Shown piece by piece: positions 6,055 through 10,241 of a stretch of 10,241 nucleotides of DNA (the first letter of the stretch is position 1; every line of letters starts with the position of its first letter). The translations under genes and the position numbers were made by a program. The stretch comes from Candidatus Auribacterota bacterium. GTDB taxonomy: Bacteria > Auribacterota > JAFGBW01. The stretch covers positions 1 to 10,241 of the forward strand of contig JAFGBW010000137.1 in assembly GCA_016932965.1 (NCBI GenBank), read 5' to 3'. The notes under the pieces are model-generated. The model did no database searches, was not told the origin of the DNA, and worked only from the letters and a program-made list of their open reading frames with translations.

Positions 6055-7554
6055 ATGATGAAAGCTGTCCATATTCTTATCGCAGCTAACTTATTGTTAT
6101 GGGCGTGGATTCCAGCGGTGTGTCAATCCGCTGAATTCAATACGGACAATCGATTTGCCTGCCCTATCCATGATTCATTTCTTGCACCCAAATCCAGGCT
6201 CGACAAAGTCAGCAGTGAAATGAGAGCCAGGACAAGACGAAAACAGCAATATGCAGATGTACAGACCATCGAAATCATGAAAATGATCAAATTGCCTCCG
6301 GAAATAAAACGCGAGATAATCAGCAGGATCCGGTGGGAAGTCATGCCCGGACCCGGAGAAGTATCCGGCAGAAATGTCATCATCACATTAAAAAAACCCC
6401 TTCTAATCGGAGGAAGAAGATATAAGGCGATCAGGATCAAAGGGATCGTTTATAAAGACGGGGAAACCGGGGAAGTCTCGCCTCCCATCATGGAATCTTT
6501 CAATTCAGGCACCCAGCCGACGGAATATCAGATCTTAAGAAATGGAAAAATCGAGATCCGCGACATCCACCTATCCCCCAAAGGCGGAATGTATCTGGAA
6601 CAAGCTGAAAATAATTTCCTGATGAACGAAGATCTAAACAAGCTGGGTTTGACCACCCTGCTTCCGATCGGCTATGGCTGTTATCCGAACATGAGCCTGC
6701 ATGACAAGCAAATCGGCTTCGTCATCTATGGAGTGGAGGAAACAACCGATGCCAGGCTTGAGGATGATATAAGGAAAATGCGGCGGCAAGGCCTGACAGA
6801 AACAAGACCCCAAACTGACGGGATTGCGGAATTCATCCGGGAATATTCTCAAATCATGTATCGTTTTGGAAGACGCCTCAGACAGATGCATGATGCCGGG
6901 TATGCCCATTTTGCAACGCATATCAACAACGCTTATTTTTCCGGTGATGAGATTTATTTCTGCGATCTGGATCATGTAAGAAAAAAAACAGGAAAAAGGG
7001 ACTCCAAACCGTTTTCCTTTTTCCAGTTCCGCGATTATAAAAATGCCATCTCCTCTCTGCAAAGAAAATTCATGCCCATTTTTTTTCTCAGAACAAGGAA
7101 TCCGGACGGCACCCGCTTTTCATGGAGAAATTATTCACAGTTTCTGAATCTGTATTACGGTCTCATGGAGGAATATCAGCTTTATCCGCATTATTCCTTC
7201 ATGGCCGGATACTTTCATGATGACAGCAGTATGCAGTACCAGCCGGGCCAGCGTTTGACCCGGCAAAGAAGCCGGCTGTTTTCACAGCTTTCCGATCTGC
7301 AGATATTCGAATCGGATATGGAAAGCTTCGAAGTATGGAGAAGTGTTTTAAATGGAACTGGAGTCGCAAAAACAAGAGACGGAACCGCAAGAGAAATATG
7401 GCCTGGGAATTCGGAAATCGTATTGGATGATCAGGACGGAACTCTTGATGGCGGGGCTGACCGGTTTGTTTATGACGATGTCATGAGAGTAAGAAGCAAG
7501 AAAAATATCCCTCCTTCCCGAAAACGCTCCCGCATGACAAGAACAGCTTCGTAA
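6055..7554 (+). CDS. Exported protein-kinase-like (pseudokinase-type) protein
   Basis: The 499-residue product starts at one of two tandem ATGs (6055 or 6058), with no Shine-Dalgarno site. Residues 1-26 form a signal peptide ending CQSA, and LAPKSR occurs at 43-48, so the protein should be exported. The middle reads like a protein-kinase-like fold. It has a GGRRYKAIRIKG segment (119-130) resembling the nucleotide-loop and lysine strand, and a helix EQAENNFLMNEDLNKLG (from 182) resembling helix C. RRLRQMHDAGYAHFATHINNAYF (273-295, with a catalytic-loop layout) is followed by the metal-binding-type CDLDH (303-307). Aligned to H-R-D-x-K-x-x-N, the loop is H285-F-A-T-H-x-N-N292: Asn is kept, but the catalytic Asp is Ala287 and the Lys is His289. 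It is therefore either inactive as a classical kinase or works by altered chemistry, as shown for SelO and SidJ among kinase-fold proteins. The C-terminus is very basic (about 478-499). The gene calling is firm; the fold is inferred from motif order. Confidence 0.85.
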   Translation: MMKAVHILIAANLLLWAWIPAVCQSAEFNTDNRFACPIHDSFLAPKSRLDKVSSEMRARTRRKQQYADVQTIEIMKMIKLPPEIKREIISRIRWEVMPGPGEVSGRNVIITLKKPLLIGGRRYKAIRIKGIVYKDGETGEVSPPIMESFNSGTQPTEYQILRNGKIEIRDIHLSPKGGMYLEQAENNFLMNEDLNKLGLTTLLPIGYGCYPNMSLHDKQIGFVIYGVEETTDARLEDDIRKMRRQGLTETRPQTDGIAEFIREYSQIMYRFGRRLRQMHDAGYAHFATHINNAYFSGDEIYFCDLDHVRKKTGKRDSKPFSFFQFRDYKNAISSLQRKFMPIFFLRTRNPDGTRFSWRNYSQFLNLYYGLMEEYQLYPHYSFMAGYFHDDSSMQYQPGQRLTRQRSRLFSQLSDLQIFESDMESFEVWRSVLNGTGVAKTRDGTAREIWPGNSEIVLDDQDGTLDGGADRFVYDDVMRVRSKKNIPPSRKRSRMTRTAS

Positions 7555-7893: not shown

Positions 7894-8319
7894 TTACGGT
7901 TTGATCCAGTAACGGATGCCGTTCTCCGGGGAGGAGGTCCACTGCGCTGAATAGGTCAGCTTTGGATTGTCCTTTTCTTCAAAAGGCTCGTCGTTCAGAG
8001 TCAGCCAGCAATGCGCCCGGACTCTTCCCTCTGTTTCCGCCCAGTTCCTGCATCCGAAATTCAATATAAGCGGCACCCCCCTTTTACGAAGAACCGATGC
8101 CAGAGTATATGAACGATAAAAACAAATTCCGGGTTTCCAAAACAGAAAAATCCTGACCCAGAATAAAACCCAGAATCGTATCCGTTTTTCCTCCTCCGAA
8201 GAAAGCGGACGTTCTTCTGCAACAGGAGGAAGAGCCATGCTGGAACCCGGCTTCATGCTTCTTTTGATTTTCCAGGCACTTAACATCTGGCCAACGGATT
8301 CTCTGAAACAGGTCGTCAT
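7894..8319 (-). CDS. Lasso-peptide-B2-like transglutaminase-fold peptidase
   Basis: The 141-residue product matches the Transglut_core3 / lasso peptide B2 family (leader peptidases such as the McjB C-terminal domain) in length and in motif order. C66 sits in a C-x-x-R-S-x-x-L-x-x-x-L-R-x-x-G segment (CFYRSYTLASVLRKRG, 66-81). After the NFG turn (87-89) comes A102-H103-C-W, 37 residues after the Cys, close to the 36 in McjB from memory. The acidic triad member is probably E115 or D117. The catalytic set thus looks intact. These enzymes cut the leader from a ribosomally made peptide in the cytoplasm. The start ATG at 8319 overlaps the stop of the ABC exporter gene as ATGA, with GAGGA 4 bases upstream, so the two are translationally coupled. 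The family call is strong. The substrate is unknown, and whether the product is a lasso peptide is not shown because no cyclase is in view. Confidence 0.88.
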   Translation of the reverse strand: MTTCFRESVGQMLSAWKIKRSMKPGSSMALPPVAEERPLSSEEEKRIRFWVLFWVRIFLFWKPGICFYRSYTLASVLRKRGVPLILNFGCRNWAETEGRVRAHCWLTLNDEPFEEKDNPKLTYSAQWTSSPENGIRYWIKP

Positions 8320-10064
8320 GGATTCCTCACAGGTGAAAGCATGCGTCCTTTGTTCAAATGAATATGCATCTGCCCCAGTTCGATGAGGAACGGATCATGG
8401 GTAACCAGTACAATCGTCCGGTTTGAATGCACAGACAAAATCGTGTCGCGCAGTCGTGTCCGGCTTTCTTCGTCCAGCATGGCAGACGGCTCGTCCATAA
8501 GAAAAATATCCGGATCATGCAACAGGGCTCTGGCAATGGTCAGACGCTGGCGTTCCCCGCCGGATATCATTTCTCCCCGGTTGCCTACGGGCGTTTCCAG
8601 CCCCTTGTAAAAAACACAGGTGTCATCCCAGAGCAGAGCTTCCCGCATCACCTGGATCATTCTTTCCTCCCCGGCGTCAGGAGATCCGTAAACCAGATTA
8701 TCCCGGACGGTTCCGTTCAATAATATGGGTTCCTGAATCACGATTCCCAGCCGCTTTCTCCAGGAAGAACCCTTAAACGTCCGCAGGTTTTCACCATCGA
8801 TCCGGATGACCCCCTCAGATGGACGGATGAATCCCGCCATTAAACTGAGCAGAGTGCTTTTTCCGCTTCCGGAAGGCCCCTGCACCACCACGATTTTTCC
8901 GGCCGGGATTTCCAGATGAATGGATTCTAAAATGTTTTTTTCGCCGGCCCGGTAAGTCACATTTTGAAATATCATTTTCTCCCTGAAAGGCAGAGGATCT
9001 TTTGCATCCGGGAGGTCTTGTTCGATTTCCTTCTGGTCTAGAAAGTCAAAAATCCTTTTGGCGCTCGCTATTGAAATGCGAAGGGAGAGATATAAGGTAG
9101 CCAGAGATTCCAGTGGATAAGTCGCCGTGGGAAGTAAAAGCGCCATTTTCACCAGGGAATCACCCGTGAGGGAATGCCTGACTAACACCTCATACCCCCC
9201 TACTGTTAAAAGCAGCGCTTCCGAAAGCGTAAAAAGGCAGGTGATGAGCTGGGGAACCAGCGAACGGACCACCGCGTACTTCACTGAGGCTTTGGACAGG
9301 GCATCAGCCGATTCATCAAAACGGCTGATTTCCCGGTCTTCCATGGCCATGCTTCTGGACAAAATGACACTGGATAAGTATTCCGTGAGATGACCCTGAA
9401 GATGGGCCATTTTTTCCATGAGAATCCGCGACAATTTTTCGATGTGACGTCCGCCCTTATGGATGATGAACCCGCTCAACAGCAGAAAAATAAATATCAT
9501 GACCGTGAGACGGACGGACAAAGAGCACATGAGCGTAACGGCCAATATCAGGCGTACCGGCTGCATAAAAAGACGGTCGGCGATATCGATCAACGCCATT
9601 TCAAGCTGATCAGCATCCCGGCTGAATAAACTCGCGATTTCGCCGGGACGAAATCGTCTGGAAAAGGAAAGATTGAGCAGCGTCAAATGCTCGAACATCT
9701 GAACACGGATTTTCCATATGATCCGTTGATTCATTCTGGAAAATAAAAATGCCTTTGCTACCCGGAACACCACCGTCAAAATACCCGATATAGTCAGGAT
9801 TCCCATTCCAATCAACAAAGCAGAATACGGGGAGCATGAAAGAAAAAAACGTTCAGTGACCTGATTTAAAAAACGCGCAAAAGATCCGACTCCTTCGTTA
9901 GAAGACAAGGCGCCTGTTCCGGTTAAAAGCCGCTGAATAAACTCCGCTCCTATCCAGATCGAAACAGCCTGAAGCGACACGACAACAAGGGAAAATAACG
10001 ATGTCAGCAGAATCCACGGCCAAAAAGGTTTGAGATAGGACAGGAGTCTGGAACAAACGCGCAT
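8316..10064 (-). CDS. ABC exporter half-transporter (fused membrane and ATPase domains)
   Basis: The 582-residue product has the usual layout of a type IV ABC exporter. An N-terminal membrane domain has about six helices (residues ~15-320), and the ATPase domain runs from about residue 365. ATPase motifs are complete: Walker A GPSGSGKST (396-404, K402), a Q-loop in VIQEP, the signature SGGERQ (501-506), Walker B IFLMDEP (520-526, E525), the D-loop SAMLDE (527-532) and the switch His in VTHD (H556). It should act as a homodimer in the inner membrane. There is no N-terminal C39 peptidase domain, which fits a separate leader peptidase: the B2-like gene overlaps its stop by 4 bases. Lasso and related peptide clusters carry exporters of this type, and the coupling suggests export of the peptide product. 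A general lipid or drug exporter cannot be excluded by the protein alone. Confidence 0.93.
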   Translation of the reverse strand: MRVCSRLLSYLKPFWPWILLTSLFSLVVVSLQAVSIWIGAEFIQRLLTGTGALSSNEGVGSFARFLNQVTERFFLSCSPYSALLIGMGILTISGILTVVFRVAKAFLFSRMNQRIIWKIRVQMFEHLTLLNLSFSRRFRPGEIASLFSRDADQLEMALIDIADRLFMQPVRLILAVTLMCSLSVRLTVMIFIFLLLSGFIIHKGGRHIEKLSRILMEKMAHLQGHLTEYLSSVILSRSMAMEDREISRFDESADALSKASVKYAVVRSLVPQLITCLFTLSEALLLTVGGYEVLVRHSLTGDSLVKMALLLPTATYPLESLATLYLSLRISIASAKRIFDFLDQKEIEQDLPDAKDPLPFREKMIFQNVTYRAGEKNILESIHLEIPAGKIVVVQGPSGSGKSTLLSLMAGFIRPSEGVIRIDGENLRTFKGSSWRKRLGIVIQEPILLNGTVRDNLVYGSPDAGEERMIQVMREALLWDDTCVFYKGLETPVGNRGEMISGGERQRLTIARALLHDPDIFLMDEPSAMLDEESRTRLRDTILSVHSNRTIVLVTHDPFLIELGQMHIHLNKGRMLSPVRNP

Positions 10065-10067
10065 GGA

Positions 10068-10241
10068 TTATTCCGCCCGGAGTATTCCGAGGATATCCAG
10101 TTTACGGACTCTAAGAGACGGGATGATTCCGGCCGTCAGACCACCGGCACTGCAGACTAAAATCGGCAGGATGATGCCTTTCAATCCAAAATAGGGTTGT
10201 AATTGCGAGGCTTCCGGAACCCTTTGTGCAATCAGATGGCA
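10068..10241 (-). CDS. FtsX/MacB-type ABC permease, C-terminal end (partial)
   Basis: The reading frame enters from the right edge and ends with TAA at 10068-10070, giving 57 codons. The translated end has a hydrophobic helix followed by AGIIPSLRVRKLDILGILRAE (split here as AGIIPSLRVRK and LDILGILRAE). This is the classical last turn of MacB/LolE-type permeases, G-x-x-P-[SA]-x-x-A-x-x-x-x-P-x-x-x-L-R-x-E, with a modest substitution at the 'P' position. The partner ATPase should be encoded nearby, probably upstream and outside the window. The stop lies 3 bases before the start of the ABC exporter gene, so the three minus-strand genes form a tight operon. MacB-type permeases drive export or mechanical envelope work, including peptide and lipoprotein transport. 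The N-terminal part is off the window, so the subtype is unresolved. Confidence 0.85.
   Translation of the reverse strand, partial: CHLIAQRVPEASQLQPYFGLKGIILPILVCSAGGLTAGIIPSLRVRKLDILGILRAE

Follow-up and report, generated by a model that had tools for sequence, protein, structure and literature searches.

The machinery of lasso peptide biosynthesis comprises B1, an RRE, B2, a cysteine protease, and D, an ABC exporter. B2 proteases cleave the leader of the precursor peptide, and in the usual lasso layout the B2 gene lies next to that of the ABC exporter. Sactipeptide and ranthipeptide clusters combine a radical-SAM (rSAM) enzyme with an RRE and a short precursor, a combination also found in the system described here; however, the cores of the latter contain few or no cysteines, and a B2-type protease is proposed to remove the leader. 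The putative SynChlorMet (Scm) cassette (NCBIfam TIGR04248-TIGR04251), for which no publication was found in the open-licence literature, consists of two radical-SAM/SPASM proteins, a PqqD-related protein and the HPrK-resembling ScmC, and is thus akin in make-up to the Bacteroidales clusters considered below. Scores against the Scm models are nevertheless far below the cut-offs (ScmD 27.5 of 100, ScmF 21 of 400). It should be noted that, for lasso RREs, YxxP has been reported as a recognition motif (PMC12710340), and that discrete RREs co-occurring with rSAM enzymes have been noted (PMC7470986).

The system proposed here has in common with the lasso B1/B2/D machinery a discrete PqqD-type RRE, a YxxP leader motif, a B2-family protease and an ABC exporter lacking a C39 domain. 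Unlike in lasso biosynthesis, the modifying enzyme is an rSAM protein rather than an Asn-synthetase-like cyclase, the cores of related precursors are Tyr-rich and contain no acid acceptor, and the length of some of the B2-like proteins is only about 90 aa. Judged by gene context, lasso-type recognition and cleavage (RRE and B2) appear to be joined here with rSAM chemistry in place of the lasso cyclase.

The window, i.e., the whole stretch of 10,241 nucleotides analyzed, makes up all of contig C208, one of the 300 contigs of a 3.1-Mb genome (92.6% complete). An operon at its right end consists of the 3′ fragment of a permease gene, an ABC exporter gene and a B2-type protease gene, all directed leftward (Table 1). 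The close packing of the three genes noted in the original prediction was found as described, with 3 bases between the permease stop and the ABC gene start and a 4-base overlap at the next junction. The operon has a GC content of 0.49, toward the upper end of the range in this genome, and the rSAM gene of contig C277, discussed below, one of 0.476; many ordinary genes of the genome reach such values, and GC content therefore gives no argument.

Table 1 Features of the operon at the right end of the window
Feature	Position	Strand	Basis
Membrane permease gene, 3′ end (57 aa + stop)	10068..10241	-	ORF open at contig end; FtsX/MacB type suspected from ...GLTAGIIPSLRVRKLDILGILRAE tail
ABC exporter of 582 aa with fused transmembrane and ATPase domains and no C39 peptidase domain	8316..10064	-	ORF, profile matches
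Predicted leader peptidase of 141 aa, a B2-type (Transglut_core3) cysteine protease	7894..8319	-	ORF, profiles, tree
Codon of predicted catalytic Cys66	8122..8124	-	Translation; invariant in alignments
Codon of predicted catalytic His103	8011..8013	-	Translation; invariant in alignments
Glu115 codon (His + 12), candidate for the third catalytic residue	7975..7977	-	Sequence; role by likeness to McjB
ATGA 4-base overlap, ABC stop/protease start (translational coupling)	8316..8319	-	Sequence

By profile, the window protease is a B2-family member. It scores 38.6 bits against Pfam Transglut_core3 (cut-off 26) and, by a narrow margin, passes NCBIfam lasso_biosyn_B2 (NF033537; 35.2 bits, cut-off 33). 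These profile results, which include the Pfam check of the peptidase proposed earlier, agree with its assignment to the B2 type on the basis of length and the C66-H103 pattern; both residues are invariant in both B2 alignments. The third catalytic residue is less clear-cut: E115 is located at H+12, and E or D is found near the same place in several relatives, while the position is not conserved in the Bacteroidales proteins. Glu115 is proposed by likeness to McjB, which has Asp as its third catalytic residue. No other B2-type protein was found in the assembly; its second Transglut_core3 match is 515 aa long and not encoded in a RiPP context. The AlphaFold model of the protease has a pLDDT of 71.7; transglutaminases rank first in VIA-align, at a weak Z of only 3.6, and Foldseek returned no solved-structure match at E≤0.001. 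No matches were obtained in a PDB sequence search, in a contig scan of genomes with the window protease alone or in a plasmid search.

The ABC protein matches ABC_membrane and ABC_tran, and the profile search detected no C39 peptidase domain, which bears out the original description of the exporter. Its best relatives in the phylum are only 28-31% identical, and it is not close to the exporters of the rSAM clusters in a phylogeny that, because of long branches, is uninformative. The permease label fared less well. For the 57-aa fragment, neither Pfam nor NCBIfam gives a match up to E=10, and among 7,658 ORFs only the tail of an FtsX permease encoded on contig C89 comes near it (E 0.14), so that an FtsX/MacB-type assignment is plausible only. 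Moreover, no FtsX-type permease was found in the related rSAM clusters. For these reasons, the permease, put forward originally as part of a combination that might define a new class, does not define one. Contig C59 was considered as the source of the missing half of the gene and rejected, since it overlaps contig C287 by 87 bases. This overlap lies inside an FtsX permease gene and makes the two contigs (right end of L023, and L034) joinable, yielding a MacB-type ATPase, a permease and a fused MacB in succession.

The original prediction saw no PqqD-like recognition protein beside the exporter and protease, and suggested looking for one, together with a small leader-bearing ORF. Both are present in the genome, but on another contig, the 3.5-kb C277 (L025), where a gene for a PqqD-type protein is followed by a 46-aa precursor ORF and an rSAM gene. 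The ORF is preceded by a ribosome-binding site and encodes MKKTEKKAEKKEYTKPKIEKHKSIVKISGSGCSSYSSRSDGSLYYH, with the leader elements YTKP...KH...GS and the C-terminal end SLYYH. A match to a sigma-70-type promoter (12 of 12 bases) lies upstream of the PqqD gene. The contig breaks inside the gene that follows rSAM; the 79-aa open product has no family match in Pfam or NCBIfam, and the guess that it is an adaptor protein was dropped. The only other stand-alone PqqD protein of the assembly is encoded on C62 (L024 7979-10355), preceded by a HAD-like phosphatase gene and followed directly by the gene for a serine/threonine protein kinase; no RiPP enzyme is seen near it.

Two independent searches of one set of 384 genomes, one with the window protease and the other with the C277 rSAM enzyme, lead to the same cluster. 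The best relative of the protease (31%, E 2e-14) and that of the rSAM enzyme (39%, E 2e-73) are both encoded in genome G377, about 2.6 kb apart on the Nitrospirota contig JAJRZK010000062.1 (L082/L077). Like C277 and the window together, this cluster contains a PqqD protein, a Tyr-rich precursor (48 aa, ending QWYYYYYYYWY) and an ABC exporter. It differs in having a second rSAM enzyme, an HPr-kinase-like (HPrK-like) protein and NTP_transf_5, and in that no FtsX-type permease was found in it. The window protease is paired with that of G377 in the B2 tree (support 90/90), in which the lasso B2s of the phylum form a separate branch. In addition, the genes of C277 point toward its broken end and those of C208 away from its broken end; these directions make a single operon possible. 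The open ends of the two contigs overlap no other contig, in contrast to C59 and C287. The extension to the right suggested originally was not possible, as the window is a whole contig, the last 100 bases of which have no other match.

When 84,980 species genomes were scanned for C277-type rSAM proteins with two short patterns partly derived from the G377 enzyme, 13 full-length relatives were obtained; the search was repeated without bias in the 384 genomes. Given the use of only two such patterns, the family is probably larger than shown. Ten loci, namely that of G377 (L082) and nine from Bacteroidales (L086-L094), carry rSAM, PqqD, HPrK-like, ABC exporter and NTP_transf_5 genes. Each of the nine loci for which the upstream flank was examined (G377 and eight Bacteroidales) also encodes a B2-like protein. 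The Bacteroidales B2-like proteins, mostly about 90-100 residues long, share a Cys and a His that are invariant, as well as an IGENxKYxYW stretch at the C terminus; a direct comparison of the window protease with one of them gave no match, and the link runs via G377. The precursor gene follows directly after PqqD, and its product has a leader with YxxP, His and QGS and, in most cases, a core with LYY repeats. A search pattern combining the leader elements with GS and a YY end retrieves only 9 of 13,136 small ORFs, namely the peptide of C277 and the precursors of eight Bacteroidales clusters.

C277 shows the rSAM family, the PqqD protein and the YxxP...H...GS...YY precursor of the Tyr-rich rSAM cluster type, and the B2-like protease and C39-less ABC exporter of this type are found in the window, on the other contig. 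HPrK-like and NTP_transf_5 genes were seen beside neither C277 nor the window operon; these may lie in the gap between the two contigs. Not all rSAM relatives belong to such a cluster: L083-L085 and L142-L144 are without one, so that membership in the rSAM family does not by itself diagnose one, and C277 could for the same reason be a self-contained locus. At L142 7866-8870 (G191), a 37% relative of the C277 enzyme is encoded alone beside a clpX-like gene, with no PqqD, precursor or protease. The original prediction held that a B2 gene detached from the exporter in homologous loci would refute a dedicated module; in the rSAM/Tyr-rich loci the two genes belong to one cluster, whereas L078 and L081 have no adjacent exporter. 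The latter (L078 7025-9983 in G230, L081 6435-8315 in G268) combine B2, PqqD and rSAM genes and represent other non-lasso contexts of B2.

Lasso cyclases were looked for in the window, among the six full-length Asn-synthase-like proteins of the 92.6%-complete assembly (a gap remaining), and within the examined flanks of the ten related clusters, and none was found, as the original prediction had noted for the visible genes. All six proteins score above the asparagine-synthase cut-off; in contrast, a lasso-type cyclase of the same phylum, that of L050, scores best with the lasso cyclase model and falls below that cut-off. This, together with the lack of a cyclase in the ten clusters, makes a non-lasso RiPP the better reading, and for want of the cyclase we do not class it among the lasso clusters, with the gap as a caveat. 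The proposal of a peptide maturation and export module consisting of a B2-type protease and an exporter is supported, and that of a RiPP class other than lasso peptides is largely borne out, except that a PqqD protein does exist and that the permease is not shared among the clusters. Lasso-like clusters with B1, B2 and HPrK-like genes are present in the same phylum at L050 8695-14415 (G012) and L049 5708-11294 (G005), the former of which also encodes the cyclase and an 81-aa precursor (MSLWECIPIKIKF...PWVPPTLEKIELHSTGSG...).

In our opinion, the genes of the window are probably the downstream end of an rSAM RiPP operon that was split by an assembly gap between C277 and C208. The joined operon would run from the promoter through PqqD (RRE), the 46-aa precursor, rSAM and a further gene to the gap, and from there through the permease and the ABC exporter to B2. 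PqqD would bind the YxxP leader (YTKP) and present the peptide, the rSAM enzyme would modify the Ser/Tyr/Cys-containing core, and the B2 protease would cut the leader off close to the GS(G) motif using C66 and H103, with E115 probably as the third residue. The ABC exporter, having no C39 domain, would then carry the matured peptide out. The order of these steps, the cleavage site and the chemistry are those we infer for a C277/C208 pathway.

It is unlikely that the operon is instead part of a lasso peptide cluster truncated by the end of the contig, with the cyclase, B1 and precursor in the missing right-hand DNA and the ABC protein as a McjD-like exporter. The window protease does pass the lasso B2 model and adjoins an ABC exporter in the usual lasso manner, lasso-type clusters occur in the phylum (e.g., that of G012), and the C277 precursor could be read as Cys1...Asp9 after GSG. 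However, related precursors have no Asp or Glu at core positions 7-9, the protease pairs with that of an rSAM cluster rather than with the lasso B2s of the phylum, and the six full-length Asn-synthase-like proteins of the 92.6%-complete assembly are not of the lasso type. A B2-dependent peptide system unrelated to C277, with an unseen precursor and a MacB-type pump for immunity or as a second exporter, is quite improbable. It would agree with the lack of a physical link, as no read or contig connects C277 with C208, and with an exporter and a permease for which no close counterparts were found in the rSAM clusters. Against it stand the occurrence of the best relatives of B2 and of the C277 rSAM enzyme in one cluster, and the contents of the two contigs: the visible part of C277 has no protease or exporter, and the visible C208 operon has no precursor, RRE or modifying enzyme.

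Transglut_core3 proteins occur in many contexts, and the second one of this genome is encoded away from RiPP genes. Nevertheless, it is very improbable that the window holds a chance neighborhood, i.e., a transglutaminase-like protein with a non-RiPP role, such as cell-envelope protein turnover, beside ordinary exporters. The tight gene spacing and ATGA overlap argue against this, as does the match to the B2-specific model; furthermore, relatives of similar size adjoin RRE, rSAM, HPrK-like or NTP_transf_5 genes.

Beyond the split rSAM operon itself, these clusters may well represent a multi-phylum RiPP class, characterized by rSAM-modified Tyr-rich peptides, YxxP/RRE recognition, release by B2 (about 90 residues in Bacteroidales) and no lasso cyclase. 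To this class the window would contribute a member from one more phylum, with a permease in addition. No description of a Tyr-rich rSAM/B2 RiPP was found in the literature, the search being limited to open-licence papers. If the class is confirmed, a "lasso" annotation based on a B2 match alone mislabels such clusters, and the Tyr-rich peptides of gut and rumen Bacteroidales, Nitrospirota and this phylum can be tested as a source of new peptide modifications. The B2-like proteins of roughly 90 aa would likewise be a minimal form of the B2 protease for study.

The gene adjoining the operon on the other strand (window 6055-7554) encodes a secreted-looking 499-aa protein with a weak kinase-like match (Kdo/WaaP, E 0.011). 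This protein is one of the exported-looking proteins of the genome in which L[AS]PxS is found soon after a signal-like N-terminus (5 of 131 ORFs, compared with 0 of 293 in other genomes). The remaining carriers are encoded at L023 4708-6252, L024 3-971 and 4971-6404, and L030 1-1215. The motif is possibly a sorting or anchoring signal.
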